Both the position numbers and the translations under genes were made by a program. A stretch of DNA of 34,158 bases, taken from a virus. The notes below the pieces were generated by a model. The model saw nothing but the letters and a program-made list of their open reading frames with translations, had not been told where the DNA came from and searched no databases. Of the stretch, positions 4,680 to 24,034 are shown in pieces. Within the stretch, counting starts at the first letter, position 1. Every line of letters begins with the position of its first letter. The stretch is taken from IMG/VR virus record IMGVR_UViG_3300023179_000297, positions 1 through 34,158 of that record; one strand, 5' to 3'.

Positions 4680-4715
4680 ATGTCCAATAACGTATCCACT
4701 GTAGGTGTCGTTTGA
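4680..4715 (+). CDS. Possible 11-residue leader peptide coupled to 4712 gene
   Basis: ATG at 4680 is preceded by AGGA seven bases upstream and encodes MSNNVSTVGVV followed by TGA at 4713-4715. The stop overlaps the TTG start of the next gene (TTTGA arrangement). The downstream TTG has only a weak ribosome site of its own (TAGGTG), so translation of this short frame could deliver ribosomes to it by re-initiation. The alternative is that the short frame is chance. Confidence rests on the ribosome site and the exact stop-start overlap. Confidence 0.35.
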   Translation: MSNNVSTVGVV

Positions 4716-7022: not shown

Positions 7023-7046
7023 ATATCAGTTAGGATATCATCTCAG

Positions 7047-9120: not shown

Positions 9121-9648
9121 TTATGCAGCGTTATACGTGCCTAAGTACATGTCTCCTTGTGCGTCTGGCCACAGATACTGATAGTACTTTGGTTTCTCTC
9201 CAGTATCTTCTTTCCAGTTAAACTTAGAGTACCATTCATAATTTTTATATAATAGCGCTACCCTATGAGTAGAAGCAAGCTCTTCGTATTTTTCTGTGTC
9301 TTGCATCCAACTAGGAAGAGTAAGACTTTGCGATATAGAACCAGACATAACAGCAATATCGTATGTTTTATATATTTTACCAAGCATAGAAGATTTGAAG
9401 CCTCGGCTAATCCATTCAAAGTACGTGGCTGAAAGATAAGAAACAAGCGCAGTCTCGTGTCCTCTCCACATCTTCGTGGCTGGATGATTTGCCCAACCCT
9501 TAGGGTCTCTGTAGTTACCTTGTGGGTCTAACTTAGTTATTGCAAGAAGAATTTGCCATCCTTCTAAAGTTTGTTTGTTTAAGCGCTTATTATCAAGTTC
9601 TTTTGCTATGTGCTTGAATGAGCTAGTTTGCGATAGAAACGTTTGCAT
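9121..9648 (-). CDS. Pyrimidine dimer DNA glycosylase / endonuclease V-like (MSMEG_6728-type)
   Basis: A 175-residue protein that fits the small pyrimidine-dimer glycosylase-like family (PF03013, MSMEG_6728-type) common in actinobacteria. Seen are MQTFL at the start, LDNKRLNKQTLEGWQIL (18-34), GWANHPATKMWRGHE (51-65) and a C-terminal half with ASTHRVALLYKNYEWY followed by YQYLWP. Family members are expected to excise UV-induced pyrimidine dimers by base-excision repair, as T4 endonuclease V does; a sunlit habitat would favour this. The ATG at 9648 has a modest GGA-rich site. A 47-base gap separates it from the zinc-ribbon gene upstream. Assignment rests on the conserved N-terminal pattern, and repair activity is inferred. 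Confidence 0.75.
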   Translation of the reverse strand: MQTFLSQTSSFKHIAKELDNKRLNKQTLEGWQILLAITKLDPQGNYRDPKGWANHPATKMWRGHETALVSYLSATYFEWISRGFKSSMLGKIYKTYDIAVMSGSISQSLTLPSWMQDTEKYEELASTHRVALLYKNYEWYSKFNWKEDTGEKPKYYQYLWPDAQGDMYLGTYNAA

Positions 9649-9695: not shown

Positions 9696-9980
9696 TCACA
9701 AGTCATCTTCTTCGTCTATTATATCTGCGTAATGTTGAAGTATATCCATATTAGAAGTGTATATTCCAACAACTGTTACTTCTCCGCAAGAGTAGCATTC
9801 ATTTACCTCTGGCGACAGCTCCATAGGCACTTTTACGCCTATCAAACGAGAAACTAATTTACCATCTTGGCTAACGCTTTCTGGCTCCCAGAAACTGTTG
9901 TTGTCTATCCAACATTTTTCACACACCGGGACAAACTCTTCTTCTTGATATTCTTCGTCTTCAAAGTCTTCTGTACTCAT
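9696..9980 (-). CDS. Small acidic zinc-ribbon protein
   Basis: A 94-residue protein not matched to a named family. It has an acidic N-terminus (FEDEEYQEEEF), two Cys pairs CEKC (20-23) and CYSC (62-65) spaced as in a zinc ribbon, then an acidic C-terminus (ADIIDEEDDL). Such small treble-clef or ribbon proteins in phages often bind nucleic acids or RNA polymerase, but the acid ends point to a protein partner instead; no function is claimed. Its ATG overlaps the stop of the methyltransferase-like gene (ATGA), so the two are translationally coupled. Confidence 0.6.
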   Translation of the reverse strand: MSTEDFEDEEYQEEEFVPVCEKCWIDNNSFWEPESVSQDGKLVSRLIGVKVPMELSPEVNECYSCGEVTVVGIYTSNMDILQHYADIIDEEDDL

Positions 9981-11239
9981 ACAACACCAGTCTTATCTTC
10001 CAATGAATACCATCTTTTCTTCACCGCATGGCGTGAGAAACCTTTATCAGTCTCTATAAGATACTCTCTGTCACCTATAAGAACCGCGTCATCTCCTTGA
10101 GGATTACCATTCAAAGAATCTTTTATGCCCTTAGCGAGCCACGAGGCGGCTTGTACGGGTACCGCCTTGCCCCATACCGCACGAAGAGCGCTGTAGTCAC
10201 GGGATTCTGAAATATTCCATTCATCAGGAAGACCTTGCATACGCGCTGATTCTCTGTGCGTTATCAATCTTGGTTCAGTAGGGTGAACAACATGCTCAAG
10301 AGCTGATCCTGTAAGAACGTTGCACCAGTGATCTTCCTTCCAGCGATACGGCTGTGAGAATCCAAGCTTAAAGTTTTTTCTAATAACGCGAGGAGAAATA
10401 TCAATCCACTTCTGAGGAAATTCTCCATTATTAAGTTCTACTGCTTTTTTAAGAGCCCCGCCAAGATCTCCGTTTCCTTCCCAACCTTCATTTCCAATAA
10501 TGTCAAACACCTCTTGCACTCTTTGCGCGTGTATGTTCTCAACCCCAATGTGGCCGTCAACAAACCCGTCCTTTGAGATTAAGTGCTTTACCCACTTTGA
10601 AGAAGGAGAAGTGTACCGTTGCTTATTCCATGTATGAGGCAGTTTAGCAAGATCTCCAATAATATCCATTATTCTTGGGAGCTCTTCTGGTTCGTTAAGA
10701 GGTATTGACAACTTTAGACCAGTTTCTACTGCTACCCAGAAGTACCTTGGTCTGTACGAAAATCCACCAACTTGTAGATTATTTTCTTTTATGTGGTAAA
10801 GATCGTATTTTTTACCTGATATCTCTTCTACCATGCTTCGGTACTTAAGCATAGCGTCTCTTCCTTGATTGTATGCCTGTTGTACACACTCGAAAACAAT
10901 GGCGCGAGGCTTTACCCGTCCAGCGTACTTCATGAACGCCACGGTATGCTCGTGCGCCTTTGAGTCAGGTCCTCTATTAGCGGGACCAGACCAGACTGAC
11001 CAACCAGAGCAAGGAGGACACCCGAGAACAATATCTGCTTTCTGTAAAGGCCACTCATTAGGATCTTCAGAAAAGTAACTTGACCAATTGTTTCCAAGAA
11101 GATGTCGATTATTTTGAGCTACAACATTTCCAAAGTCGAGAGTGCCTGTACGAAGCATCATCTCCATGTCATTTTGAACAAAGCCAAGACTCATGAAAGC
11201 GGCAAGACCGTTACAGTCTATGAAACTTAGCTTACTCAA
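9977..11239 (-). CDS. C5 cytosine DNA methyltransferase-like protein
   Basis: A 420-residue protein with the C5-methyltransferase motif order: motif IV GCPPCSGWS (73-81) with catalytic Cys77, motif VI FECVQ (116-120), motif VIII YRPRYFWV (162-169), motif IX ITHRESARMQGLPDEW (326-341) and motif X WGKAVPVQAASWLA (356-369). Motif I is odd: FIDCNGLAAFMSLGF instead of the usual D-L-F-A-G-x-G-G, and motif VI has FEC where ENV is typical. The start is TTG at 11239, with AAAGG eight bases before it. A 66-base AT-rich gap upstream could hold a promoter (TAGAAT or TACTAT boxes). It may methylate phage DNA against host restriction. In a phage that may contain hydroxymethylcytosine, the altered SAM-site motif raises the question whether it uses a different cofactor or substrate. 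Confidence 0.8.
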   Translation of the reverse strand: MSKLSFIDCNGLAAFMSLGFVQNDMEMMLRTGTLDFGNVVAQNNRHLLGNNWSSYFSEDPNEWPLQKADIVLGCPPCSGWSVWSGPANRGPDSKAHEHTVAFMKYAGRVKPRAIVFECVQQAYNQGRDAMLKYRSMVEEISGKKYDLYHIKENNLQVGGFSYRPRYFWVAVETGLKLSIPLNEPEELPRIMDIIGDLAKLPHTWNKQRYTSPSSKWVKHLISKDGFVDGHIGVENIHAQRVQEVFDIIGNEGWEGNGDLGGALKKAVELNNGEFPQKWIDISPRVIRKNFKLGFSQPYRWKEDHWCNVLTGSALEHVVHPTEPRLITHRESARMQGLPDEWNISESRDYSALRAVWGKAVPVQAASWLAKGIKDSLNGNPQGDDAVLIGDREYLIETDKGFSRHAVKKRWYSLEDKTGVV

Positions 11240-11305: not shown

Positions 11306-11623
11306 CTAAGAAGAAATGTTGGCTTGTTTTTCTAAGAAGATCATGCCTACTTCGTATCCGCATCCGGCGTAGCCAGCTACATCTATCCAAGTGTCACCTT
11401 GGAACCCTGACTTAGAAGCGTATCGTGCTACCTTTAGTCCAATCATCATCATAGCTACATCTTCACTAGTGACAGCAGAACCGAGTATAACAGACCAAAT
11501 CTTTGCTATTCGATCAAAGTTTTCTTCAGGGCCGCCGTACTGTATGTCTCTTTCACCAGAGATAATTTTTGCTGCTTCTCTTAAAGCTTCTACCCTGTAC
11601 TTTACTGGTTCTTCAGATGACAT
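11306..11623 (-). CDS. DUF6378-type phage protein
   Basis: A 105-residue all-helical protein. The pattern RDIQYGGPEENFDRIAKIW, TSEDVAMMMIGLKVARYA and DTWIDVAGYAG fits the DUF6378 family, widespread in phages and of unknown function. The order of conserved residues (YG, then D..K..R, then D..D..GYA) recalls DUF1599, a domain linked by others to nucleotide modification; that link is only an impression here. The ATG at 11623 follows AGAGG nine bases upstream and lies one base after the upstream stop. The 66-base gap downstream separates it from the C5 methyltransferase-like gene. Confidence 0.65.
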   Translation of the reverse strand: MSSEEPVKYRVEALREAAKIISGERDIQYGGPEENFDRIAKIWSVILGSAVTSEDVAMMMIGLKVARYASKSGFQGDTWIDVAGYAGCGYEVGMIFLEKQANISS

Positions 11624-12258: not shown

Positions 12259-12738
12259 TTATCCTTCTTTCTTCTCTGGAGCGCATTTAGCGCATAAATC
12301 GCTTTCTGTGCCCACGCCAATATCATCTATAGCGCGCGTGCACATGCGACATTTTACTCCTACTTCTTTTACTTTGTACCCATCTAGTTGACGTTTTCTA
12401 TTTTTTTCCATTTTTTCTACGTAAAATGCGTCTAGTACTTCGTCTGTTCCTCCGGCCGCAACGATGATATTTGCAACAAAATGAAGAACATCAACAGCTT
12501 CTTTTATAATTTCTTCTCTATCAGCATACGGATCGTCATGCTGCCATGGCTTCCATGAGATTGCTTGACGCATCTCTGCCAGCTCATCGTCAATGGCTAG
12601 CATATTCCAGCGCATGTACTCGACTAAGTTTCTTATATTTTCAGGCGTGTCACCTTCTAGTTTTTCATAGTCAATTCGATACACGCTTTTTTGTAGATCT
12701 TTTGTTTTTTCTAACCATGTATTAAAAAGTATTCCCAT
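12259..12738 (-). CDS. All-alpha NTP pyrophosphatase (dimeric dUTPase / possible dCTPase) with zinc ribbon
   Basis: A 159-residue protein. Residues 38-122 match the dimeric dUTPase group of the all-alpha NTP pyrophosphatase (MazG-like) superfamily: IDDELAEM (E52xxE55), SWKPW (61-65), and EEIIKEAVDVLHF with E80xxD83 as metal ligands, followed by KNRKRQLDGY. These enzymes hydrolyse dUTP (and in T4 gp56 also dCTP) to the monophosphate. A C-terminal CRMC (130-133) and CAKC (149-152) form an added zinc ribbon not typical of the family. ATG at 12738 lies just after the upstream stop, with AAGGA about ten bases before it. It supplies dUMP, and if it acts on dCTP it would supply dCMP for the ThyA-family hydroxymethylase candidate and keep plain dC out of DNA. 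Substrate cannot be told from sequence. Confidence 0.75.
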   Translation of the reverse strand: MGILFNTWLEKTKDLQKSVYRIDYEKLEGDTPENIRNLVEYMRWNMLAIDDELAEMRQAISWKPWQHDDPYADREEIIKEAVDVLHFVANIIVAAGGTDEVLDAFYVEKMEKNRKRQLDGYKVKEVGVKCRMCTRAIDDIGVGTESDLCAKCAPEKKEG

Positions 12739-12739
12739 G

Positions 12740-13765
12740 CTATTTTGTTCCTTTCTTACTATATAAGCCAAGAGCGTTATGCAGTTCTACTGCAGCATCT
12801 CTTCTTGATGGCATACTTTTTACGTATGCTTCTCTCTGCTGGTACGCAAGTGCTACTCTATCTTCTTCAGAAAGATCTTCTATTCTTGCTGCAAGATACA
12901 TCCACGAGTCTCCTAGTACACTGCTTTCTTGCCAATTGGTAGCAATAGGAGTAAGAGAATTAAGACACTGCGGTATTCTGTAACTCCACCATGTTCCGTT
13001 TTGATGAGGAGTAATAAGTGCGCCTATTCCACTCGCTATTTGCGCAAGCACTTGCGCGTCAGTCCAGCCCTTGTGCCATTTCATTGGCACAGTAGGATTC
13101 GCTAATGTTGCTGCAGTAGACTTTATCCATGGAGTAGAATAGTTTTCTACTACCCATTTTTCTCTTCTTTCTATCTCTATAACATCTTGATTAGATAGTA
13201 AATACGAGTCAATATTTACAGCCATAAGTGAATCTCTAGCTAGTTCTGGTAATTGTTTTTTAACAGATTCTATGTCACCCCATGGAAGAGAAGGGTACAG
13301 CGTTACTGGCCATTTCTCGGTTATTAAGTAATCTATAACATCTATGAGACTGTCTAACACAGTTGGCTGCGTCGCGTAAGAAAAGCTTTTTCTGTACGAA
13401 TAGAAAGGCTTAGTTAAATTGTCTGGAGTTTTGCTTATTGCTTTTAAGCTAGAAGTAATGCGCGTAGGCTCTGGAGCGTCAATAAGTAGCCTAAGTTTTG
13501 GAGACTTTAGCATAACGTCAATTACGCTAAGAGCTCCATACACTCTGTTAGCGCTTAAGCTAGTTAAAGGGCTTATGCCTACTAGTACAGAATCGTATTC
13601 TTCTAAGTCTTTACTATTCCATGAAACGTCTGGGTCTTCTTGAATTACTATGTGTCCTTGTTCCTCGAGAACTTTAACTATTGCACCCGCAAAAGAAAGA
13701 GACCTGGTATTCGCGTCCTTAGACGTATGAGGCGCTGACATCCCAGTGACTAGTACTTTACTCAT
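12740..13765 (-). CDS. GT-B-like glycosyltransferase, paralogue 2
   Basis: A 341-residue protein related to the gene immediately upstream. Both start with a short strand and loop (KVLVTGMSAPHT here), then a helix of the form SLSFAGAIVKVLEEQGH, then YDSVLVGISPLTSLSANR, as in the N-terminal Rossmann domain of GT-B enzymes. The C-terminal half has HQNGTWWSYRIPQCLNSLTP followed by SVLGDSW, matching the upstream paralogue's GSGWWRSRFLYAAHVGSV and DPLGDSY; this is where GT-B enzymes bind the nucleotide sugar. The start overlaps the upstream stop (ATGA). It sits among replication genes, not in the + strand sugar locus, so DNA is a likely acceptor. It is shorter than its partner, mostly in the middle, and could have a different sugar or anomer. 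Function is inferred. Confidence 0.6.
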   Translation of the reverse strand: MSKVLVTGMSAPHTSKDANTRSLSFAGAIVKVLEEQGHIVIQEDPDVSWNSKDLEEYDSVLVGISPLTSLSANRVYGALSVIDVMLKSPKLRLLIDAPEPTRITSSLKAISKTPDNLTKPFYSYRKSFSYATQPTVLDSLIDVIDYLITEKWPVTLYPSLPWGDIESVKKQLPELARDSLMAVNIDSYLLSNQDVIEIERREKWVVENYSTPWIKSTAATLANPTVPMKWHKGWTDAQVLAQIASGIGALITPHQNGTWWSYRIPQCLNSLTPIATNWQESSVLGDSWMYLAARIEDLSEEDRVALAYQQREAYVKSMPSRRDAAVELHNALGLYSKKGTK

Positions 13766-14973
13766 GCGACAGTCCCGTCTGCGTTTAGCTCTAATCCTTT
13801 ATCTTCTAGTGCTGCGCGTTGAACAATACGATTGCAGTGCTCTACAAAACTTTCATAGGTTGGTATGTATTTTGAAAGCGCCGCGCGTTGAGCCATTGCA
13901 GCTTCGTGTAACTGCGTCTCATTCATCTTCTCTACATCTGATATTGTAAGTTTATATGAGTCTCCTAGAGGATCTCCTTCGCCTTTATCAGTAACAAGAA
14001 CAGAACCAACATGAGCAGCGTATAAAAATCTGCTGCGCCACCAGCCTGAACCCGCGTGAGGATACGGTGGCGAAAGAATTCCCCAGTGTCTATTGTAGAA
14101 CTCAAGAACGTCTTGCTCCGTATCAAATCGCTGTCCACCGAGCTTTTTAATAAGCTTTCTACTTCCAACTATTTCAACTGGCCAATTAAAGTTTTTCTTT
14201 TCTAGCCAAGTATCATGTGGCATTAGCGCTCCAAGCACCCATGCTTTCTTTTTAGCGTCTGGCGCATTTTCTATTACTGCCTGAAGAGAAGGAATAACAG
14301 TTGGCGTTGGGTCAAGAGCTTCTATAGGTCCAACTTCTTTTGGCATACGTTTACGCACTACTGATCTGTCACCAAACGAGTACATAGGGCACACAGGCAC
14401 CATACCAGCTTCCCAGCGGGCAGCAAGGAGATCTATTGCAGACTGCACTAAGCGTTTTTCATAAGGTTTTACATTTTCGTCGTTGTCCATCATGTAGTAA
14501 CGTTCTATGTAACACTTTTTAGCAGCGTCAGGGTTGAGCTCTCTAACACGTTCTAGTGCTGCTTCTATATCTTCTCTGCTAAAGTACGTAGCACCTTCGT
14601 CACCGCGATGGTCTGTTCCAACAAGTAAATGTTTGTAAAGCATTGCTGGTTTTCTCATAAGAGCACGCGCACCATTGAATACAGTATTAAATTGCCAGTC
14701 GTCAAAAAATCCTACGCAAGGTATACCAGACGACAGCGCATAAAGCGCTCCCATAGCTCCTTGTCGGCCATTTAAAGAATTTAGTGGAGCAAGATTTATC
14801 CATAAAACATCATAAGAAGATAGATCTTCACCTGGAGTAATTTTTCTCCAGTCTACTTCATGCCCTGATTCACGTAGTGCTTTAACGATAGATGCTGGCA
14901 CATCTATCTTTTGTATAGTGCGTCTTTCAGTGTTTATTTGTAAAGCAGTAAACCCACTCATAAGAATTTTCAC
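13762..14973 (-). CDS. GT-B-like glycosyltransferase, paralogue 1
   Basis: A 403-residue protein. The N-terminal domain begins ILMSGFTALQ, then IDVPASIVKALRESGHEVDW, YDVLWINLAPLNSLNGRQG and CVGFFDDW, which fits a GT-B Rossmann domain. The C-terminal domain contains KKAWVLGALMPHDTW, PVEIVGSRKLIKKLGG, LSPPYPHAGSGWWRSRFLYA and VLVTDKGEGDPLGDSYKL, the expected nucleotide-sugar side. The GTG at 14973 has GAAGG six bases upstream; an ATG four codons in is the alternative. It overlaps its paralogue by the ATGA junction. No signal peptide or membrane helix is seen, so it is a cytoplasmic enzyme. With the hydroxymethylase candidate in the same transcription unit, glycosylation of hydroxymethylated cytosine in phage DNA is the leading hypothesis; a protein or small-molecule acceptor cannot be excluded. 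Confidence 0.6.
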   Translation of the reverse strand: MKILMSGFTALQINTERRTIQKIDVPASIVKALRESGHEVDWRKITPGEDLSSYDVLWINLAPLNSLNGRQGAMGALYALSSGIPCVGFFDDWQFNTVFNGARALMRKPAMLYKHLLVGTDHRGDEGATYFSREDIEAALERVRELNPDAAKKCYIERYYMMDNDENVKPYEKRLVQSAIDLLAARWEAGMVPVCPMYSFGDRSVVRKRMPKEVGPIEALDPTPTVIPSLQAVIENAPDAKKKAWVLGALMPHDTWLEKKNFNWPVEIVGSRKLIKKLGGQRFDTEQDVLEFYNRHWGILSPPYPHAGSGWWRSRFLYAAHVGSVLVTDKGEGDPLGDSYKLTISDVEKMNETQLHEAAMAQRAALSKYIPTYESFVEHCNRIVQRAALEDKGLELNADGTVA

Positions 14974-15011
14974 TTACTACCTTCTTTCTTCTTTAAGTTG
15001 ATCTGGAACGC

Positions 15012-15058
15012 CATCTGTCACTACAACAGATGACGAACCAGACTAACTCAATGAGTTA
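15012..15058. other. Two inverted repeats between ssDNA-binding and GT genes
   Basis: In the 86-base gap between the gene at 15060-15608 and the GT-B gene are CATCTGT (15012-15018) paired with ACAGATG (15026-15032), and the near-perfect palindrome TAACTCAATGAGTTA (15044-15058). Neither is followed by a T-run on the - strand. They may slow or process the transcript after the abundant ssDNA-binding protein gene, or act as operators for the glycosyltransferase genes. Confidence 0.35.
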
Positions 15059-15059
15059 T

Positions 15060-15608
15060 TTAGAACGGTGATGCTGGAGGAGCTGCAAGTGCCGGTTCCT
15101 CAGCGCGTGCAGGCGCTGGTGCAGGCGCTGGTGCAGGCGCTGGTGCAGGCGCTGGTGCAGGCGCTGGTGCAGGCGCTGCAAAAGAATCAGCTGCAGACGC
15201 TGCCCCTGCTGGAAAATACATTTTAATTTCGTTCTTCTTTTGTCCTTGCCATACACGAGATCCAATTTGTGCGCGAAAGGAGCGTCCTTGCATTGCCTGC
15301 TCTATTTGAGCGTTAGATGGGCTTGACGCAAAGAAGTCACGTCCTAAGCCTAAAGCACCCATCTTACGGAAAAACATTCCAAGAGCAGAAGAGTTATCTG
15401 GAGTAACAACAAGGTTATCCCAGACCAGACGCTTAGAATGTGCTCCATTTTGCACTTGTGCCTTTACAGCAAACATTGTCTTACCAGATTGCGAAACCTT
15501 TGCAACAGCTTCAACAATCGTAAGATCATAGTCGCCATCTGGCAGTGGTTCGAAACTAGTGCCTTCTCCAGCGTCTTTTACAAGATCGCCCCAATTAAGT
15601 GTACTCAC
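15060..15608 (-). CDS. DUF669-like phage single-stranded DNA-binding protein
   Basis: A 182-residue protein. Residues 1-133 fit the phage DUF669 pattern, thought to be ssDNA-binding proteins: NWGDLVKDAG, then PLPDGDYDLTIVEAVAKVSQ (21-40), MFAVKAQVQNG, LVWDNLVVTPDN (61-72), FFRKMGALGL (79-88) and a final strand NEIKMYF. After it comes a flexible tail built of Ala-Pro dipeptides (about 145-167) and the end APPASPF, where SSBs of other types carry their partner-binding tip. The start is GTG at 15608, with GAAAGG eight bases before it. Its neighbours, a Sak4-like ATPase, a Cas4-like nuclease and an SNF2 helicase, are the partners expected in single-strand annealing and recombination. The tail is encoded by a 12-base tandem repeat. 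Confidence 0.65.
   Translation of the reverse strand: MSTLNWGDLVKDAGEGTSFEPLPDGDYDLTIVEAVAKVSQSGKTMFAVKAQVQNGAHSKRLVWDNLVVTPDNSSALGMFFRKMGALGLGRDFFASSPSNAQIEQAMQGRSFRAQIGSRVWQGQKKNEIKMYFPAGAASAADSFAAPAPAPAPAPAPAPAPAPAPAPARAEEPALAAPPASPF
15109..15180. repeat. 12-base tandem repeat encoding the Ala-Pro tail
   Basis: The unit GCAGGCGCTGGT occurs five times perfectly (15109-15168), followed by a sixth copy differing at the last two bases (15169-15180). On the - strand each unit encodes Ala-Pro-Ala-Pro. It is in frame, so copy-number change would lengthen or shorten the linker without breaking the gene. It is not a CRISPR array: there are no spacers. Confidence 0.9.
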
Positions 15609-15629
15609 TATGTATACCTTTCTCTATTG

Positions 15630-16388
15630 TTATTTCTTGTTTTTAACTTCGGGTTTAGGGCCAAAAACCATATCAAGCATGCGCTCTATTCCTAGATCTT
15701 CTTGCTCGACTATTTTTCCAAGTCTTCCTTGCACGCGTTCTCCAGCTTCGTATTCTGCAGTGCGTTCTACATACATACGACGAACTTTGTACGGAGGATG
15801 AAGAGGATCAGGGTTAGGCATCTGCTCTACAGTTATTGCTCCTAAAATGTCGTAAAAATAAGGAGCTTGAATTGCGAGCTGTCCTTGTAGATACGGGCGC
15901 GAACGGCCATCTCCACTCGGACGTGCCATAGCAGTTAGTACAACGGCTTCTAACGGCTGTGTAGGGTGCATTGTAAGGTCACGTAGATCACGCAATAGCG
16001 CTCCCATGTGACGAAGCAACTCGCCCCATTGCTGCATTTTCATTTGCTCAGTACCAGCAATTGAATCCATGCACTTCACTTGAAGTTCAGAGATAGAATC
16101 GATGATAAGAGATTTGAACTGGTGTTTTCCAGTTTGCAACCATTGGAACGTTTTAAGAACTACATCGTAGTCGCGAACGTTTACGACTACAGTGTCCCAA
16201 GTGCCATCAGCAACTGGCGGTTCTTCTCTAATTGGGTCCCAGTACTTAACTGTGATAGGCAAAAACCTATGCCCACCCTCAACGTCAAGCATGAGACGTG
16301 GATACGGTGCGGTGACTGCAAATGTTGACTTACCAACCTTTGATTCGCCATACACCATGATTGTCAACGAACGTTGTACGTCAGACAT
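15630..16388 (-). CDS. Sak4-like / RecA-fold phage ATPase (AAA_24 type)
   Basis: A 252-residue P-loop ATPase: Walker A GESKVGKST (about 14-22), then PRLMLDVEGGHRFLP, WDTVVVNV, and a Walker B-type strand SLIIDSISEL. This is the layout of the AAA_24/Sak4-like phage proteins, RecA-fold single-strand annealing or recombination proteins that work with a phage SSB. The C-terminus (IERMLDMVFGPKPEVKNKK) is basic. ATG at 16388 has AAGGA seven bases upstream; the GTG one codon earlier is less well spaced. It lies directly upstream of the DUF669 gene, a frequent pairing for Sak4. It could alternatively serve as a helicase-loader-like ATPase. Acts in the cytoplasm on DNA. Confidence 0.7.
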   Translation of the reverse strand: MSDVQRSLTIMVYGESKVGKSTFAVTAPYPRLMLDVEGGHRFLPITVKYWDPIREEPPVADGTWDTVVVNVRDYDVVLKTFQWLQTGKHQFKSLIIDSISELQVKCMDSIAGTEQMKMQQWGELLRHMGALLRDLRDLTMHPTQPLEAVVLTAMARPSGDGRSRPYLQGQLAIQAPYFYDILGAITVEQMPNPDPLHPPYKVRRMYVERTAEYEAGERVQGRLGKIVEQEDLGIERMLDMVFGPKPEVKNKK

Positions 16389-16436
16389 CACTTATTCCTT
16401 TCATCTCTTTTTGCAGTTTGTAGTATCTGTTTAACA

Positions 16437-17369
16437 TTATTCAGTACCACCTTTTTTCTCTTCGTTCCCGTAGTAAGCATACGGATCTGCAGATTCAAAA
16501 GCGTCTTCAATTGCTGCCTCTGCCGCACTTCCATCGTCAAACATTGGACATATAGAGAAAAATTGGCATTTCCATTTGCAGTCTCTGCTAGGTCTAGGGT
16601 AGACTACAAAGCGATGATCAGAGCCTTTGTCTAGCATCTCCCTAGAGTTTAGCATGTCTGCAAGAGTACCGTGAATTCTTTGCCAGAATGAGCGAAGCGC
16701 AAATACGTTATGACGTACTTCCATTTGCTCGTAGAAAGGAGGTCTAGCATTAGCAGACCTTTTTACTTTCTTAAGCATAGTGAATATGCCGCCTTCTGAT
16801 CTTTCGCCTTCTTTATTTTGTGCAGTCTCCAGCATCATGTACGTAAGAATCTGTTCGTTCATGTGCGCCATTGAAGTAAAATCAGTGAATGATCCACCGA
16901 CAGTCTTAAAGTCTCTAAACATACGCACGCCATCACCTTTTCGACGGACACGCATATCTATCTTACCTTGTAGCTCTACTTTTCCATCGAGTAGTGGCAT
17001 TGAAATAACTTCTTCTGTTGAAATCATTTCTAATTCTGCATCAATTCCATTTTCTTCTACCCACTGAAGGTATCCTTCAAGCATTATGCGTCCAAGCTCT
17101 GCTTCAGAGTCAAGATCGTAAGTATCACGATTTTCTAATTCAAGAGTAGCGTGATCTTGGCGTATCAATTGCGCGTGTGCTTCTAAAAGAGGTATTTCCT
17201 TAGAGTAATACATATCAAGAGCTTCGTGAATTCTAGAACCTAAAGCAAGAGCGCCAGTCATTTGTTTGCTTTTTGGCTGTAAACGGCGATAGTAACTTAA
17301 CCACCATTTTCTCTTACAGTCCTTGTAAGTTTGAATTTCTGAATTTGATATTCTAAGTGGTTCTATCAT
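16437..17369 (-). CDS. Cas4/RecB-like PD-(D/E)XK nuclease with iron-sulphur cysteines
   Basis: A 310-residue nuclease of the RecB/Cas4 group. Motifs seen are C18 in TYKDCKRKWW, GSRIHEAL with H48, GKIDMR with D138, RDFKTV with D153 and K155, and the QxxxY motif EQILTY (172-177). At the C-terminus CKWKCQFFSIC (264-274) supplies three cysteines which with C18 would hold a 4Fe-4S cluster, as in Cas4 and AddB. Such phage enzymes are 5'-3' or 3'-5' exonucleases that make single strands for recombination. No CRISPR array or other Cas gene is nearby, so a recombination role is preferred to adaptation. ATG at 17369 follows AGGA and overlaps the helicase stop (ATGA). Confidence 0.85.
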   Translation of the reverse strand: MIEPLRISNSEIQTYKDCKRKWWLSYYRRLQPKSKQMTGALALGSRIHEALDMYYSKEIPLLEAHAQLIRQDHATLELENRDTYDLDSEAELGRIMLEGYLQWVEENGIDAELEMISTEEVISMPLLDGKVELQGKIDMRVRRKGDGVRMFRDFKTVGGSFTDFTSMAHMNEQILTYMMLETAQNKEGERSEGGIFTMLKKVKRSANARPPFYEQMEVRHNVFALRSFWQRIHGTLADMLNSREMLDKGSDHRFVVYPRPSRDCKWKCQFFSICPMFDDGSAAEAAIEDAFESADPYAYYGNEEKKGGTE

Positions 17370-19168
17370 AGTTTTCCTGCCTTATCGTCTTTTAGAAGTA
17401 AGATAAGTTTATCCTTATCTTTAACTATTTGTTCAAAGTTATCAGCCTTAGTTTCAAGGACCTGAATTACGCGTTCTTCAATAGTTCCTTCAGTAACGTA
17501 GTCAGTGATCATAACTGAATCGTGTATCTCTGACCCAATACGGTGAACACGATCTAATGCTTGCTTGTAATCTACTAGTGACCATGGACGTTGTAGCATG
17601 ACAAGACGGCGAGCAGCAGTGAGCGTCACTCCGACACCACCAGCTTGCGCAGTAAACAGAATCCATTTAATTCTGCCAGACTGAAAATCGTCAATTGCTT
17701 GTTGACGTTCGTCTTCATCTTGAGCCCCAGTGATTAATCCATGTTCTATTTTTGCTTTAGTTAGCTCCTCGCTTAAAAGTTCAATAAGTTGTCGAGAAAC
17801 TGCGCATACTGCGACAGAGTCATTTCCAAAGTCTCCGTTAGATATATCGTTCATTAGAGCGTCAACTTTGCATGATGGGCCAGAAAGTATTGCGCGCATT
17901 TCACCGGTGTCTTCATTTACGTCCATTGTTGCGTACGAACTGGCGAATTGAAGAAGTCTTATCGTTTGCGTTAATGCACTTGGTGCTGTTAGTGCATCTC
18001 CAGATTCTAGTTCTGCTATCATAGTGTCGCGCATTTGCTTATAAGCTTTTTCTTGTTTTGTAGACATTTCAGTATCTCTACGCTCAAATAGCATTTCTGG
18101 TAGCCAAGGAAGCACACGAGCTTTTAGCATGCGCCTCATTCTAGGATTTACAGTTGCATAGAATTCTTCTTCCATGTGCGGTTTTACGCCAAGAACCATC
18201 ATGCCACCAAAAGCATTTAGCATTACATTTACCATACGGTCAACCCAACGTGTCTTGCTTGGCCACTCTTCAGGTGACAACCAGTGAAGGATTGACCATA
18301 GATCTAGCACGTTGTTTGCGATAGGTGTTCCCGTTAACGCGAAGCGAATATCTGCATCACCTGTTGCAGCCCATAGGGCACGAGATTGCTTAGACTTGGG
18401 CTCCTTCGAGCGATGGATTTCGTCTGCAACTACAGACTTAAAATCAATCATGTTGAGTTCTCGCTTATGAACCTCGCAGCGATTTTCTGTAACTTTGTCG
18501 TCATGGCCGCCGCACTCTATACATCTAGCTAATGCAATAGAGCCGTATGGAGAAAGTCTAGAATGTGCGCGTAGAGATTCCCAGTTTATGGCGAATACTT
18601 GCGAGTCTTCTTCAAACTGCTTGCGCCTTTGCCCAGCGGATCCTTTTATTACTGTCACGTTTACTTCAGGCCACCACATGGCGAATTCACGTTTCCAGTT
18701 TTTCTTAAGAGTATTAGGGCAAACGATTAGCGCAGGAAAAACTTCTTCGCCTTTATCTTGAAGTTCTTTTAGCGCTCTAATTGCCTGTGCAGTTTTACCT
18801 AATCCAGGTTCATCTGCTAGTAGAGCTCGTCTTGCTACTGATAGAAATTTTACTCCAGCGCGTTGGTGTGGGTACAGGTCTTCATTGCCCTCATCAAGGG
18901 TTTCTATGTCACGAAGCGCATTGGCTGGGGTAATACGCGTAGTTACTTCATTAGTTGCCCAGTCAGTCAATCTAGGGCCAATTTCAAGGCTTGTCTTAAA
19001 CGTAGAACGAAGTGCTAGGCACGTTGCCCAAGACGTAGGTACGCTCCATACTTGTGTTTTTGTATCCCACTTTGCGCCAGGTATGCTTTTACATAATTCC
19101 TTAAAACGCCACTCGGCGTTGATTATTATGTGCTTGCTCGATTCGTCGAGTTCGACTAAAACGTTCAC
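17366..19168 (-). CDS. SNF2-family DNA helicase/translocase with HARP-like N-terminus
   Basis: A 600-residue superfamily 2 ATPase. Residues about 15-60 (ELCKSIPGAKWDTKTQVWSV) resemble the HARP domain that directs SMARCAL1-type annealing helicases to forks. Then come Q-like YPHQRAGVKFL (99-109), Walker A ADEPGLGKTAQAI (118-130), DEIH (249-252), LTGTPIANN (278-286), and the C-terminal lobe with AQAGGVGVTL and the arginine-finger motif QALDRVHRIGS. An insertion between motifs Ia and II holds C216, C219, C231 and H234, a small zinc site. GTG at 19168 is preceded by GAAAGGA nine bases upstream; the 86-base AT-rich gap before it could hold a promoter. It probably remodels replication forks or recombination intermediates with the nuclease, Sak4 and RuvC neighbours. 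Confidence 0.85.
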   Translation of the reverse strand: MNVLVELDESSKHIIINAEWRFKELCKSIPGAKWDTKTQVWSVPTSWATCLALRSTFKTSLEIGPRLTDWATNEVTTRITPANALRDIETLDEGNEDLYPHQRAGVKFLSVARRALLADEPGLGKTAQAIRALKELQDKGEEVFPALIVCPNTLKKNWKREFAMWWPEVNVTVIKGSAGQRRKQFEEDSQVFAINWESLRAHSRLSPYGSIALARCIECGGHDDKVTENRCEVHKRELNMIDFKSVVADEIHRSKEPKSKQSRALWAATGDADIRFALTGTPIANNVLDLWSILHWLSPEEWPSKTRWVDRMVNVMLNAFGGMMVLGVKPHMEEEFYATVNPRMRRMLKARVLPWLPEMLFERRDTEMSTKQEKAYKQMRDTMIAELESGDALTAPSALTQTIRLLQFASSYATMDVNEDTGEMRAILSGPSCKVDALMNDISNGDFGNDSVAVCAVSRQLIELLSEELTKAKIEHGLITGAQDEDERQQAIDDFQSGRIKWILFTAQAGGVGVTLTAARRLVMLQRPWSLVDYKQALDRVHRIGSEIHDSVMITDYVTEGTIEERVIQVLETKADNFEQIVKDKDKLILLLKDDKAGKL

Positions 19169-19254
19169 AGCAAGACGTCCTTTCGTCGTTATTTTGCCAT
19201 ACTAACAGGAAACTGCAGAAAAGTAATTTTATTTTGACTTAGTATGTAGTTTTT

Positions 19255-19719
19255 TTACTGAAGCAGCCTCTTTGGTGACCAACCTAGCTTTATCGCCCTA
19301 AGTAGTCCATGCCGTATCGCGTCAAGAGCGTGACCTTCTCCGCCAACAAACCAGTAGTCTAATTTCTTTAATGCAGGGTTAGGGAACATTTTCTTAGCGT
19401 CTGCAGGAGACTGAAAAGTAAGTGAATCAGGATCTAAATCGCCATCTAACATAAGATGCTTAAGTATCCCGATCTGCTCTAAAGAGTACGGTGCCTGCGT
19501 GTTACGAACAGTTTGCGCGTTGATAATAAATCTCTCGCACACAACATCAAGATGAATATTATTGTTACGAGCATGTTCAATTGCATCACGAATAGGCTTA
19601 GCGTACTCACGCATTTGATATTCACCAGACCATAGAAGTTTAGGTTCTTCACCGCGCTCTAATTCTATAAGCGCAATTCCGCTAGCCTTACCTGGGTCTA
19701 CAGATAAAATAAACTTCAT
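19255..19719 (-). CDS. RuvC-like Holliday junction resolvase
   Basis: A 154-residue RNase H-fold nuclease. It opens with FILSVDPGKASGIAL, where D8 is the first catalytic acid, has VVCERF with E62, and HALDAIRHGL with H130 and D133 as the last catalytic group. This is the spacing of RuvC/YqgF-type resolvases; the length is typical of phage forms. Such enzymes cut four-way junctions before packaging. Its ATG overlaps the polymerase stop (ATGA). It lies between the DNA polymerase and the SNF2 helicase, as expected for a replication-recombination module. Confidence 0.85.
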   Translation of the reverse strand: MKFILSVDPGKASGIALIELERGEEPKLLWSGEYQMREYAKPIRDAIEHARNNNIHLDVVCERFIINAQTVRNTQAPYSLEQIGILKHLMLDGDLDPDSLTFQSPADAKKMFPNPALKKLDYWFVGGEGHALDAIRHGLLRAIKLGWSPKRLLQ

Positions 19720-21542
19720 CGGTACTTATCTCCCCACGTCTCCATTGGTCCGTCAATCCCAGCAGTAAGTGGGACAGCCCAGCCTTCTGTAGTTGTCATA
19801 CACTCTTTAACAGTCTGCATAATTTCTATAGCGTCTTTTCTCGGAGCATTAAGAACAATTTCATCATGCACTGGCACAATTAAAAGTTCTGTTAAATCTG
19901 CTTGATCTAACTTAACAAGATTAGACTTAAAAATTTCAGCCGCGCCTCCTTGAATTAGGTAGTTAACAAGAGTGTAAGCGCGATCTTCATCACAAGGAAG
20001 ACGCCTACCAGTCCAAGTATACACGTAACCTTGGCCTTCAGCTCGTAAACGACGCATACCAGCATCTTCTATTTGCTTTTGAAATAGCGCCATTCCAGGA
20101 AAACGAGTATCAAACGCATCTGACACAGAGCGCATCTGCGGCTCAGCAACACCAGCAGTTAGCGCTTGTTTTGCTACGCCAGCTCCGTAAAGACGACCAT
20201 ACACTGTTCCTTTAATAAGATTTCTTCTTTTATCAGAACGCTGCATGCTTGGATCATTATAGATCTCGCGACCAATTTCAGTGAAAGGATCTGACCCCGT
20301 TGCGTCAGCTCGATTAAATAGAGTAATAAGATTTGGATCACTAGATAGACTAGCAAACATTCTAAATTCTACTTGGTCAAGGTCGGACGTAATAATTACG
20401 TGATCCTCGTCTTTAGGAATAAACGCAGTCCGTACAGTATCATCGCCTTTAGGCAGTGTTTGAAGAGCTGGATTTTGTATAGACATACGGCTTGTGCGTG
20501 CACCTAGTGTTTTTACTGAAGGATGCACAAAACCATTAACGTTGTCATTGATAAAGTTGGCAAAATACGTATTAGCTAGCTTATCAGCCTTACGCTGCTT
20601 TAGAACAGTTTCTGCTAGCATTTTTACTTCATGATTTCCTTGAATAGAAAGAAGTTTTAACTGATCTTTACTTGCTGATTTCTGTCCAGAAGGAGTGTAT
20701 TCGTCAATATCCGCACCTAGGCTTTCAAATAGACGAACAAGTTGTACGTTGCTTGTTATCGAAACTCCACCGTATTTTTGTCGTGACCACTCCTTAACTT
20801 GTTCAGTGTAGGCAGTTAGCTCATCAAATTTCTTTTTAGAGTAGTCGAGATCTATTCTAGCTCCGTTTATTTCCATACGCGTAACAATTCGTCTAGCTGC
20901 CATTTCAAGTTCGTACGCTTTGTTATACGGACCTTCAGGACCACATTTTTTATAGAACATTTCCCATATTCTCATAGTAAGAACGCAGTCAAGTGCACCA
21001 TAAGCCCAATAAGGTTCAAAGTTAGTTGGAACAGTTCCCCATGTCCAACCATTTTTAGCAAGTTCAGTATCAAGAGTTTCTTGAAGCGCTACAGCACGAC
21101 TATCAACATGCAAAGCAGCAAGACGCTTAAGCGCTCCAGAGCCAAGTGGATCTATGATGTGTGCCATAATCATTGTGTCGTGCGCCCTGTGCCAAGGAAT
21201 TTTCCAACGAGAATGAACGTCAAACCATCGTGCTTCAAATGCAATGTTATGACAAACTATTGGACCATCGAACTTGTCCATTGCTTCATAGAAAACACCA
21301 GCCCACTCTGACCAAGACATTGCCCAAGATTGTTTACCGTCTCCTACTTGTACAAGACGTAGTTGACCATGCCAAGGAGAAAGAGCATCAGCACGATCTC
21401 TGCCAGGAAGCTCTCCAGTTTCTGTGTCAATTGCAATAGCATTATATGGACGACGTTCTCCTAGCCACGATATAAAGTCACGCGCCTTATCAGCACTGTC
21501 GACTAAATGTAACTGAATCTCACCTAATCCTTCATTTGGCAT
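19716..21542 (-). CDS. polA: Family A DNA polymerase with 3'-5' exonuclease
   Basis: A 608-residue replicative-type polymerase. The exonuclease domain shows Exo I AIDTETG (37-43, D39 and E41), Exo II HNIAFEARWFD (98-108) and Exo III YGALDCVLT (181-189, D185). The polymerase domain has motif A DLDQVEFRMFAS (387-398), motif B KRRNLIKGTVYGRLYG (438-453) and motif C VPVHDEIVL (556-564). No 5'-3' exonuclease domain is present, as in T7 and many actinophages. Tyr448 occupies the position of E. coli Phe762, as in T7 polymerase. ATG at 21542 lies inside the deaminase gene end, an 11-base overlap. It would copy phage DNA, and must accept the modified dCTP if the hypermodification route is real. Confidence 0.95.
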   Translation of the reverse strand: MPNEGLGEIQLHLVDSADKARDFISWLGERRPYNAIAIDTETGELPGRDRADALSPWHGQLRLVQVGDGKQSWAMSWSEWAGVFYEAMDKFDGPIVCHNIAFEARWFDVHSRWKIPWHRAHDTMIMAHIIDPLGSGALKRLAALHVDSRAVALQETLDTELAKNGWTWGTVPTNFEPYWAYGALDCVLTMRIWEMFYKKCGPEGPYNKAYELEMAARRIVTRMEINGARIDLDYSKKKFDELTAYTEQVKEWSRQKYGGVSITSNVQLVRLFESLGADIDEYTPSGQKSASKDQLKLLSIQGNHEVKMLAETVLKQRKADKLANTYFANFINDNVNGFVHPSVKTLGARTSRMSIQNPALQTLPKGDDTVRTAFIPKDEDHVIITSDLDQVEFRMFASLSSDPNLITLFNRADATGSDPFTEIGREIYNDPSMQRSDKRRNLIKGTVYGRLYGAGVAKQALTAGVAEPQMRSVSDAFDTRFPGMALFQKQIEDAGMRRLRAEGQGYVYTWTGRRLPCDEDRAYTLVNYLIQGGAAEIFKSNLVKLDQADLTELLIVPVHDEIVLNAPRKDAIEIMQTVKECMTTTEGWAVPLTAGIDGPMETWGDKYR

Positions 21543-22008
21543 AGTTGTCCTCTACTATAGTTACGTCTATGCCACAGTTTTTAAAGTAGTCAATTGTGAG
21601 CTCTGGTCTCCTGTACGAAGCAGTTCCACTAATTTTTGTAACCACTCTTTTTATACCTGAGTTAGAAACTAGTTTAGCGCATTGAAAACATGGTACATCT
21701 GTAATATAAATAGTTCCGCCTTCTATACGAGATCTATCAACGTAGAGAAGCGCGTTTGCCTCTGAGTGTATCGAAGGGCACGAGTCATACGTGTTATCAA
21801 GAGGAACAACCCCTTGCGCACGCGGGCACCAGTTTACGCAGTCTCCTTCAACTGGCAAACAAGCAGCAGGTCCATTGTAGCCAGTAGAGCTAACTCTTTG
21901 ATCCTTAGAAACTATCACCGCACCGATTTGTGCACGACTACAGCGCGAACGAGCTGCAATAGACTCAGCTACTTGCATCCACACTTCATCCCAAGATGGT
22001 CTACTCAT
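21532..22008 (-). CDS. Deoxycytidylate (dCMP) deaminase
   Basis: A 158-residue zinc deaminase: the HSEANAL motif (81-87) gives the zinc ligand H81 and catalytic E83, and PCFQCAK (106-112) gives C107 and C110. An upstream loop with extra cysteines (C50, C57, C61, C77) is typical of dCMP deaminases that bind a second metal. It converts dCMP to dUMP. The frame is open to 22041, but ATG at 22008 starts the conserved MSRPSWDEVWM. It overlaps the small gene upstream by eight bases and the polymerase downstream. In T4 the same enzyme coexists with dCMP hydroxymethylase and competes for dCMP; here it would feed host thymidylate synthesis, as no ordinary ThyA or ThyX is seen. Confidence 0.9.
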   Translation of the reverse strand: MSRPSWDEVWMQVAESIAARSRCSRAQIGAVIVSKDQRVSSTGYNGPAACLPVEGDCVNWCPRAQGVVPLDNTYDSCPSIHSEANALLYVDRSRIEGGTIYITDVPCFQCAKLVSNSGIKRVVTKISGTASYRRPELTIDYFKNCGIDVTIVEDNYAK

Positions 22009-22186
22009 GAAAATCATCCGGGCCATACGCCATAGAAGCAACTACTACCTTAGAAATAATTGTCAAGCTTTCCTTGCGTGAAAAACCAGACTTGCAGAGC
22101 TCAACGTACATCTCGTGCAGTTGCACAGTAGCGTCACGAAGAGGACTAGTATACTCTTTTGCTTCTTCGTTATCTTTATTTTCCAT
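22001..22186 (-). CDS. Small helical hypothetical protein
   Basis: A 61-residue protein. The frame is open to 22252 inside the ThyA-family gene, but ATG at 22186 with a GAGG site is preferred, giving MENKDNEEAKEYT at the start. The rest is mostly helix (LHEMYVELCKSGFSRKESLTII) with a final acidic stretch. No motif is recognised. It overlaps the ThyA-family stop by 11 bases and the deaminase start by 8, so it is coupled to both and is probably a real gene, perhaps an accessory of these enzymes. Confidence 0.5.
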   Translation of the reverse strand: MENKDNEEAKEYTSPLRDATVQLHEMYVELCKSGFSRKESLTIISKVVVASMAYGPDDFHE

Positions 22187-23036
22187 TTTTTGCCTCGTTC
22201 TTAGCAATAGCGTTCTGCATCGCAAGAGCGTACCATCGCGTATCGCTATCAATAAACGTAAGATACTCTCCGTCCTTTTTCGAAAAGGACAGTGCTTCTC
22301 TAGCTTTTATTTCTACTTCTTTCCACGTAGATCCAGTAAGAGAAGGTATATTCTCGTATTTATCAGTGTGCGCTAACTTAGTTGCAGATTGATAGTGCTG
22401 TTCGTATATATGAAGTGACCCTACGTGATGAGTGTACTTACCAGGTTCTATTCCTAGAACAGAAGCCATAGCTATTTGTACGCGAGTAAATTGAAAGAAA
22501 TCGTATGCTGCTCCAAGCCATACATCATTAGAGCGCATGTAAACACTCATATTTAATTTATTGTCGCGTATTCTAAACTGATGAAGTATTGTGCACGGGT
22601 AATCACGCTTTTTAGCAAGAAGATCAAGCTCAGGGTTCCATATAGTAACTACGCCTTGGCGTGAGTCTGGATCGTCTTTTAGACGAGAGATTATTTCGTT
22701 GTACTGTCCCTTAGTTCTTAAACCATACGCGCCATGAAACAGTCCATTGTCCTCAGTGTAGTTCTTAAACTGTGGTCCTATAGCAATAACAAGACTAGGT
22801 TCGCTAACTCCACCAATAAGCTGACAAGCTTCAACTGCACCAATACCAGCAACTGTGCCTCTGCCAACGCCTAAAGGTAGAGTATTAAACACGTCTGCTA
22901 TGCGAATAACAGCATCTTCTATTTCTAATGTCTTCATTCCACGAGGAGCTACTTCTACTCCATTATTTAGAACGTGTTTTACAAGATCGACGTAACCATT
23001 GACCCCGTCTTGTATATCTATTATCGCAGTATCCAT
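22176..23036 (-). CDS. ThyA-family enzyme, predicted dCMP hydroxymethylase
   Basis: A 286-residue thymidylate-synthase fold protein. Catalytic Cys148 lies in DYPCTILHQF (145-154); the phosphate-site motif MRSNDVWLG (167-175) has R168 and D171; SLHIY holds H209 and Y211; DSRQGVVTIWN (124-134) is the partner-subunit loop. The key point is D179 in AAYDFFQF: thymidylate synthases have Asn there (E. coli N177) to select dUMP, while T4 dCMP hydroxymethylase has Asp179 to select dCMP. It is therefore predicted to turn dCMP into 5-hydroxymethyl-dCMP using methylene-tetrahydrofolate. ATG at 23036 follows AAGGAG and overlaps the kinase gene by 16 bases, so the two are co-translated. Residue 127 is Gln where TS usually has a second Arg. 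An unusual thymidylate synthase is the main alternative. Confidence 0.75.
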   Translation of the reverse strand: MDTAIIDIQDGVNGYVDLVKHVLNNGVEVAPRGMKTLEIEDAVIRIADVFNTLPLGVGRGTVAGIGAVEACQLIGGVSEPSLVIAIGPQFKNYTEDNGLFHGAYGLRTKGQYNEIISRLKDDPDSRQGVVTIWNPELDLLAKKRDYPCTILHQFRIRDNKLNMSVYMRSNDVWLGAAYDFFQFTRVQIAMASVLGIEPGKYTHHVGSLHIYEQHYQSATKLAHTDKYENIPSLTGSTWKEVEIKAREALSFSKKDGEYLTFIDSDTRWYALAMQNAIAKNEAKNGK

Positions 23037-24034
23037 TTGTCTCCTTCTACACTATTGTCGCTAGACGCGTTTCTTTCTATAGCACGACCATATTCTTCTA
23101 TATCCTTATGGTGAAATCTTTTCACATATTGCGGGTGAGGTAAGACTGCGCACGGTTTAACTTTATGAGCAAGAAGAGTCTTCTCAGCAAGTCTACCAAG
23201 CGCAATAACTTTTGGTCGGCCAAGACACGTCCATAACTCGTCAAATGGTTGTTGCGTGTCGTTAACGTTTACTATTCCGATGTTCTTCCAAAAGGCACTT
23301 GGAAGCGAATTTAATAAAAATTCACCAGAATTGTTGTCAACAGGCATGAACGGCAGAATAGTTTCTTCTCCATGTTTTTTAGTAATGTTTCTTCTATCTC
23401 CAACCAGGATAGTCGACGGAGTAAGCGATCCTATATATTCAGGGAACAGATCCATTCTTTTTTCTTTTACAATAGTGGCTTTTCTTTCTGCAATATCAAC
23501 AATACTTTTAGCAATACTTGGTATCTGATCAATGCTATCTTTTTCAGGTTGTATTTTCTCTGTAGAGCACGATACTTCACCAGCAATCATGTACTGGTCT
23601 AGTATCTCTTTTAACTCGTAAGATGCTACAAAATCGTCACCGCGAAACTGCAAACGTTCTTGAATCACTTCTAAGGGCTGATAAAGCCAGAACTGTGAAA
23701 TACCTCGGGATTGCAAAAAGAGTTCAACCCAGCGCCACCCAGCCTTTCCTAATAGACCGTAGCCGTCCTTGTCAGTATGTGAGCGTTTTAGTGGCGCATA
23801 CGTAATTTCACCCCAGTGCCACCTGTCTGATATTGCGTGCTCTTTTGTCCAATTGTCTTTTTCAATAGAAAGAACATAGTCGTTTAGCACCCATCGACGC
23901 GTTTCTTCTAAGGGACGTCCTTTATGAAATGACTGAACGCTACTTAAAGGGTACCGTAGTGATATTTCGTCTTTTATTGCAGATATTAAAGACGTCTTGC
24001 CGCTGGCGTCTGTGCCTTCAATAACAACAAACAT
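23021..24034 (-). CDS. Thymidylate-kinase-like dNMP kinase fused to a UDG-superfamily-like domain
   Basis: A 337-residue two-domain protein. Residues 1-185 look like a thymidylate/deoxynucleotide kinase: P-loop EGTDASGKT (6-14), SDRW (69-72) in place of the usual DRY, and a lid with RGDD (131-134). Residues 195-325 recall the uracil-DNA glycosylase superfamily: ILVGDRRN (209-216), LPFMP..NNSGEFLLNSL (227-244), GIVNVND, PKVIALGRLAEKTL (274-287) and LPHPQYVKRF (298-307). The usual catalytic acid and Asn of active UDGs are not evident, so this may be a binding rather than cutting domain. The start has AAGGA ten bases upstream. Overlap with the hydroxymethylase gene suggests it phosphorylates the modified nucleotide, as T4 gp1 does. 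The domain call is by eye. Confidence 0.65.
   Translation of the reverse strand: MFVVIEGTDASGKTSLISAIKDEISLRYPLSSVQSFHKGRPLEETRRWVLNDYVLSIEKDNWTKEHAISDRWHWGEITYAPLKRSHTDKDGYGLLGKAGWRWVELFLQSRGISQFWLYQPLEVIQERLQFRGDDFVASYELKEILDQYMIAGEVSCSTEKIQPEKDSIDQIPSIAKSIVDIAERKATIVKEKRMDLFPEYIGSLTPSTILVGDRRNITKKHGEETILPFMPVDNNSGEFLLNSLPSAFWKNIGIVNVNDTQQPFDELWTCLGRPKVIALGRLAEKTLLAHKVKPCAVLPHPQYVKRFHHKDIEEYGRAIERNASSDNSVEGDKWILR

Follow-up and report, generated by a model that had tools for sequence, protein, structure and literature searches.

A 34,158-base fragment of a viral genome (IMG/VR record IMGVR_UViG_3300023179_000297, referred to here in its full length as the window) carries on its minus strand a gene module that probably makes 5-hydroxymethylcytosine (hmC) at the nucleotide level and glycosylates it in DNA, replacing cytosine in the phage genome with glycosylated hmC. 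Four kinds of evidence underlie this reading: sequence, motif, fold, and co-occurrence of genes. What each enzyme does, how far cytosine is replaced, and which sugar is added are inferred from these. A first-pass annotation of the window had proposed one such pathway, with hmC formed at the nucleotide level and the sugar placed on DNA; the pathway so inferred is supported, and survived every test run. The genes named there (pyrophosphatase, ThyA homologue, kinase, deaminase, PolA, and two glycosyltransferase-like genes) had all been placed correctly in both position and strand.

In the proposed pathway, the pyrophosphatase would empty the dCTP pool by hydrolysing dCTP (and also dUTP) to the monophosphate; the ThyA homologue would add a hydroxymethyl group to dCMP, yielding hydroxymethyl-dCMP (hmdCMP); the kinase, together with the host nucleoside-diphosphate kinase, would raise hmdCMP to hmdCTP; and the phage PolA would build hmdCTP into DNA. 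Glycosyltransferase (GT) 1, which has a GT-B fold predicted to resemble that of T4 beta-glucosyltransferase (BGT), would then use a nucleotide sugar as donor to glycosylate hmC in duplex DNA. GT2 might add a second sugar, act at other sites, or assist GT1. The dCMP deaminase would feed dTMP synthesis, as in T4.

The ThyA-family protein (22176..23036, minus strand) matches PF00303 (Thymidylat_synt; E 2e-28) and is a candidate dCMP 5-hydroxymethylase of the T4 gp42 type. It has the catalytic Cys148 and the phosphate-binding Arg of the ThyA fold (Arg126), together with Asp179. In thymidylate synthase an Asn residue selects uracil; Asp at this position favours cytosine, as in T4 gp42 and in the N229D variant of the L. 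casei synthase. Alignment with PDB entries places D179 of the window protein opposite both the selecting Asn (3kgb) and the Asp of CMP hydroxymethylase (5b6d). Asp179 is present in 86/86 ThyA relatives, as are C148, R126, and R168. Control sequences carry Asp in T4 gp42, and Asn in the SPO1 dUMP hydroxymethylase (gp29) and in four true thymidylate synthases. Moreover, the T4-like phages 60AhydR15PP, FBB1, and Rgz1 each encode two ThyA proteins: a true synthase with Asn, and a hydroxymethylase with Asp. The dCMP-selecting Asp pointed out in the first-pass annotation is therefore borne out with positive and negative controls. (By the same site and controls, thymidylate synthase was rejected as the identity of the ThyA homologue.) A related ThyA protein, also with Asp at the selecting site, is found in phage VPE25. 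VPE25 cytosines resist MspI cleavage, are sensitive to PvuRts1I, and are protected from bisulfite, a pattern like that of glycosylated hmC (PMC4999554).

These residues bear on the plainest alternative, in which the genes serve ordinary nucleotide metabolism: a thymidylate synthase plus dUTPase, deaminase, and TMP kinase would raise the dTTP supply. Such gene types are also found in plain dTTP-producing sets, and GenBank annotates the relatives in that way. This alternative nevertheless appears very improbable: the invariant Asp179 and an MRSND signature are common to the window protein and T4 gp42, and not to thymidylate synthase; the relative GMA2, a Gordonia phage, has a separate ThyX of its own; and the coupled GT genes would be left unexplained.

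Replacement of cytosine through nucleotides would also call for a pyrophosphatase. This all-alpha NTP pyrophosphatase (dUTPase_2; 12259..12738, minus strand) is a candidate dCTPase/dUTPase with a role like that of T4 gp56. It matches PF08761 (E 2e-11), and its ExxE...ExxD motif reads DELAEM...EAVD. The reading frame is open up to a TTG at 12771; the homologue in the lake phage DSL-LC01 starts at the equivalent of the ATG at 12738. PF08761 is also over the cut-off in T4, which puts the two proteins in one Pfam family and upholds the earlier assignment to the gp56 superfamily. Among records having both a ThyA-type hydroxymethylase and the GT family of the window, 13 of the 14 searched contain PF08761: seven long IMG/VR relatives, DSL-LC01, GMA2, Mareelih, GodonK, FBB1, and 60AhydR15PP (the last with a match below the cut-off), several of these being close kin. 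The sole exception, Manatee Spring phage, has another annotated NTP-pyrophosphatase-like gene. PF08761 was sought, and was absent, in SPO1 and in both records in which the GT family instead accompanies a TET oxygenase. This distribution, with the hydroxymethylase but not with TET, would follow if the dCTP pool had to be emptied in the nucleotide-level route alone. Profile matches likewise confirm two further members of the block: the dCMP deaminase, present as in T4 (21532..22041, minus strand; PF00383, E 2e-19; phrog_174, E 6e-48), and the DNA polymerase, which belongs to family A (PolA; 19716..21542, minus strand; PF00476, E 2e-53).

The dNMP kinase (23021..24034, minus strand) is a candidate hmdCMP kinase. 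Its gene overlaps that of the ThyA homologue by 16 bases, and Foldseek searches with its AlphaFold2 model (pLDDT 94) matched the N-terminal domain best to YorR (3kb2, E 4e-7) and also to thymidylate kinases; both halves of the earlier description, a dNMP kinase and an overlap with ThyA, are thereby sustained. The C-terminal domain (residues about 200-325) is probably UDG-superfamily-like: PF03167 was detected in 9/35 relatives, with a best E of 0.007, below the curated cut-off, and a sequence search of the PDB with the C-terminal half gave no match. This domain is conserved in all 35 aligned relatives.

GT1 (13762..14973) and GT2 (12740..13765), both on the minus strand, are paralogues of one family (20% identity, BLAST E 1e-7). 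Their only profile match is phrog_14998, labelled 'unknown function'. Neither protein matches Pfam at E 0.01, where an alignment of 36 family members gives nothing meaningful. The PF09198 (T4 BGT) profile matches neither the window GTs nor this alignment; the family profile has no sequence match in the PDB; and homology to RB69 ORF003c is not significant by hmmsearch or hhalign. In 11 carriers of the family, PF11440 (T4 alpha-glucosyltransferase, AGT) and PF09198 were found in none (T4 control positive). The earlier statement that these enzymes are unlike T4 AGT and BGT thus holds for sequence. It does not hold for fold. Structure prediction, which the first-pass annotation had proposed for the GT-B proteins, was run on GT1 with 35 relatives, and gave a GT-B model (AlphaFold2; pLDDT 86, pTM 0.86) whose best Foldseek match among 350,542 PDB chains is T4 BGT (1qkj, E 6e-6, TM 0.48/0.54). 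The top 20 matches include three more BGT entries (1bgt, 1j39, and 1bgu), T4 AGT, and other GT-B enzymes. GT1 is a candidate hmC-DNA glycosyltransferase of a new GT-B family; GT2, a divergent paralogue, could be a second DNA glycosyltransferase or an accessory protein.

Residues D92-W93-Q94, E286, H306, W311-W312-R313-x-R315, and E332 are invariant in GT1-type proteins, including members of the window clade and those linked to TET or to hydroxymethylases. GT2 keeps the equivalents of W311, W312, and R315; D92 and R313 are missing. The GT1 and GT2 genes overlap by 4 bases, and the pyrophosphatase gene directly follows GT2, in a conserved arrangement, after a gap of 1 base. Together with the kinase-ThyA overlap, this is an arrangement as in translationally coupled genes.

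The whole block is transcribed in the order kinase, ThyA homologue, dCMP deaminase, PolA, small protein (19255-19719, minus strand; RuvC-like in the DSL-LC01 annotation), helicase, PD-(D/E)XK nuclease, RecA/Sak4-like ATPase, DUF669 protein, GT1, GT2, and dUTPase_2. A C5-cytosine DNA methylase, a T4-DenV-like pyrimidine-dimer glycosylase, and WhiB lie further downstream. A search for the gene set in related phages found it in DSL-LC01, in cultured Gordonia phages, and at 80 IMG/VR loci. DSL-LC01, a 129 kb genome assembled from lake water, has a predicted Actinomycetia host (PMC10611076). Its gene order is that of the window, except that a gene for UDP-galactopyranose mutase (UGM) is inserted between GT1 and GT2, and its ThyA, kinase, and C5 methylase are respectively 64%, 53%, and 63% identical to those of the window. 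The cultured Gordonia phages GMA2, Mareelih/Forza, and GodonK contain GT1, GT2, an additional GT-B gene, the pyrophosphatase, the C5 methylase, and WhiB; GMA2 also has the kinase-ThyA-dCMP deaminase run. At the 80 IMG/VR loci with a ThyA relative, kinase-ThyA-deaminase is present on every contig covering the region, and GT1-GT2-pyrophosphatase follows on contigs that reach far enough. Loci found through GT1 have GT2 as well in 79/80 cases, most running on to the pyrophosphatase and C5 methylase. Such synteny, across DSL-LC01, the Gordonia phages, and the IMG/VR loci, excludes chance. In eight loci (L062, L063, L067, L070, L078, L079, L080, and L082), another GT-B-like gene of about 425 aa, with weak similarity (24-29 bits), replaces GT1-GT2. 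This different gene at the same site suggests exchange of the sugar-transfer step.

Beyond this clade, the GT family tracks an hmC source across several unrelated phage lineages, the source being either a hydroxymethylase of ThyA type or TET, an oxygenase known to produce hmC. In C48C1 (Kyanoviridae) and its IMG/VR relatives (L008, L094-L112), a TET-GT-UGM cassette is present in 17/17 contigs extending far enough, and ThyA is absent in the four such records checked. In 10/10 other contigs the GT lies beside a hydroxymethylase plus deaminase. Aeromonas and Erwinia T4-like phages have a UGM-GT pair, with a D-type hydroxymethylase elsewhere in the genome. L193-type contigs (L193:5325-10108) encode a hydroxymethylase, dCMP deaminase, cytidylyltransferase-like protein, NDP-sugar epimerase, GT, and UGM in one run, possibly a complete operon leading from UDP-galactofuranose to DNA; L195/L202-type phages have hydroxymethylase, deaminase, GT, and C5 methylase together. 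In Gualtarvirus Rgz1 and PSTRCR_121 (L203:4363-7767, L204), the GT gene lies near the hydroxymethylase, between an SIS-domain 'arabinose 5-phosphate isomerase' and a nucleotidyltransferase, a setting that resembles the RB69 arabinose region (PMC6024577). Inheritance partly accounts for the link between GT and hydroxymethylase in T4-like phages, but not for the TET cassettes. (A divergent family member also occurs at L206, 6386-8640, in the jumbo Straboviridae Vibrio phage 6E35.1a, where it is followed by a nucleotidyltransferase-like protein and lies about 4 kb from queC.) For the window clade itself a TET route was rejected: 16 actinophage-type records contain no TET_JBP (PF12851) match over the cut-off, with three sub-threshold matches in G008 and G010, and C48C1 was positive.

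This distribution speaks to a reading in which hydroxymethylation is real, but the acceptors of both GTs lie outside DNA (in virion protein, cell wall, or receptor) and the DNA contains bare hmC. Glycan genes are indeed in use by this phage, as a glycan-like island at 4712-8138 shows, and the authors who described DSL-LC01 assigned its UGM to the cell wall (PMC10611076). Such acceptors are quite unlikely, however, given that GT1-GT2-pyrophosphatase is coupled and conserved; that the family follows hmC enzymes through unrelated hosts, in carriers without AGT or BGT; and that the best fold match of GT1 is a DNA glucosyltransferase.

If the sugar goes on DNA, gene context suggests what it might be. 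UGM adjoins the GT in four lineages (DSL-LC01, Aeromonas/Erwinia T4-likes, C48C1-type, and L193-type), which suggests galactofuranose as the sugar and galactofuranosyl-hmC as the product; the Gualtarvirus context suggests a pentose. RB69-style arabinose genes were looked for in the window-clade loci retrieved, and none were found. A search for reports of galactofuranose on DNA gave none in the literature searched, which did not cover the PNAS 2021 phage TET paper. VPE25 also encodes a second enzyme with 28% identity to a galactofuranosyltransferase; that it acts further on VPE25 DNA is no more than speculation in a 2016 paper (PMC4999554). A wider proposal, conceivable though doubtful in its entirety, is that phrog_14998-like GTs are DNA hmC furanosyltransferases, which would serve both ThyA and TET pathways and place galactofuranose on hmC where UGM is present. 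The window phage would then draw the sugar from its host and, with its two paralogues, possibly form a disaccharide, and its C5 methylase would act on hmC-DNA in a non-ordinary role.

Several observations weigh against the replacement of cytosine by glycosylated hmC. We know of no DNA chemistry for the window phage or its Gordonia relatives. The match between GT1 and BGT is remote (TM about 0.5, 11% identity), and profile-level sequence comparison gave nothing significant. Other GT-B enzymes score nearly as well, so a DNA acceptor is not proven by fold alone; moreover, GT1 is the one paralogue whose fold was modelled. A search for UGM in 12 long contigs from the window clade found none. Nor does this clade have a consistent sugar-nucleotide gene: an epimerase occurs in 2/8, in a variable plus-strand region (judged by position). 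The likely donor is thus a host UDP-sugar. Full replacement is also hard to square with the C5 methylase, intact in its motifs, that accompanies the module. Finally, the ThyA tree joins the window clade with the SPO1 dUMP hydroxymethylase and PW916 (support 92/93, long branches), so that the dCMP call rests on the Asp site and not on phylogeny.

That grouping favours a further alternative, in which 5-hydroxymethyl-dUMP is the product of the ThyA homologue and 5-hydroxymethyluracil (hmU) is the base that GTs or other enzymes decorate, as in thymidine-hypermodified phages. The PW916 protein, a dUMP hydroxymethylase by annotation only, also has Asp at the selecting site, and dUTPase_2 and dCMP deaminase are compatible with a dUMP route too. 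This alternative is unlikely in view of three observations: the pyrimidine-selecting residue is Asp, not Asn, throughout the 86 relatives; the GT family also stands beside TET, an hmC-producing enzyme; and the hmU-DNA kinase PF18723 was found in 0/12 records (M6 control positive), a search that did not include the window, whose kinase has no such Pfam match. (With PF18723 absent, a thymidine-hypermodification role for the kinase was rejected.)

The C5 methylase (9977..11239, minus strand; PF00145, E 2e-19) is part of the conserved module. Its catalytic motifs (PPC, Glu117, and RxR) are kept across 51 relatives, and a C5 methylase also adjoins the hydroxymethylase and GT in L195/L202-type phages. 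If all cytosine were hmC, this enzyme would be without its normal substrate; its presence, an anomaly, could reflect partial replacement, early action, or some other action on hmC. Both its membership in the module and the BGT-like predicted fold of GT1 had been overlooked in the first-pass annotation.

The phages known to have glycosylated hmC are chiefly the T-evens, RB69, and a few more. Like the T4 pathway (gp42, gp56, gp1, alpha-gt, beta-gt), the proposed pathway combines a D-type ThyA, a dUTPase_2/dCTPase, a dNMP kinase, a dCMP deaminase, and a GT-B enzyme with a BGT-like predicted fold. Unlike T4, the window belongs to a probable actinobacterial siphophage with PolA rather than PolB, its GTs are unrelated in sequence to AGT and BGT, its kinase is thymidylate kinase/YorR-like with a UDG-like domain, and its module includes a C5 methylase. 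The arabinosyl-hmC system of RB69 (ORF003c, ORF055c, ORF53_52c; PMC6024577) similarly uses an alternative GT-B enzyme on hmC and lacks AGT and BGT; ORF003c, however, is not detectably homologous to the window GTs, and no arabinose genes surround the window module. The Enterococcus phages VPE25 and VFW share with the window Gram-positive hosts and a related D-type ThyA adjoining a dUTPase and a GT, and their cytosines are experimentally modified, but their GT is a T4-type BGT, about 40% identical to that of T4 (PMC4999554). Phages that hypermodify DNA by oxidation of 5-methylcytosine have the window GT family in their TET-GT-UGM cassettes, whereas the window phage would make hmC at the nucleotide level. 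The closest systems remain DSL-LC01, GMA2, Forza/Mareelih, and GodonK, with the same module in the same order; DSL-LC01 adds UGM, and the Gordonia phages add a GT-B gene.

The proposed pathway would be present throughout a clade of phages that probably infect freshwater actinobacteria, as well as in cultured Gordonia phages, with a GT family labelled 'unknown' in public databases. This family is widespread and uncharacterised, and is directly testable in the cultured phages. Its recurrence with TET and UGM points to a DNA sugar for which no report was found in the literature searched. If the reading is correct, a large phage group is likely shielded from restriction and Cas nucleases, and new DNA glycosyltransferases would be available as reagents.

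The first-pass description of the window, itself a fragment, as a probable actinobacterial siphovirus agrees with a WhiB profile match (E 3e-17), with Dit and tape-measure matches, and with relatives that have actinobacterial hosts. The host is probably among aquatic actinobacteria; a ThyA relative was sought in 84,980 bacterial and archaeal genomes and none was found, so the host is not fixed by that route. Adjoining the hmC module is the T4 DenV-like pyrimidine-dimer glycosylase (9121-9648; PF03013). A DUF6378 protein (11306-11623) bears the PHROGs label 'phosphofructokinase', which is doubtful for a protein of only 105 aa. The separate glycan-like island, on the plus strand, consists of an unknown ORF, a Methyltransf_24 protein, and a GT-A protein with TPR (phrog_13126); at about the corresponding position, G004 and G008 have an epimerase.

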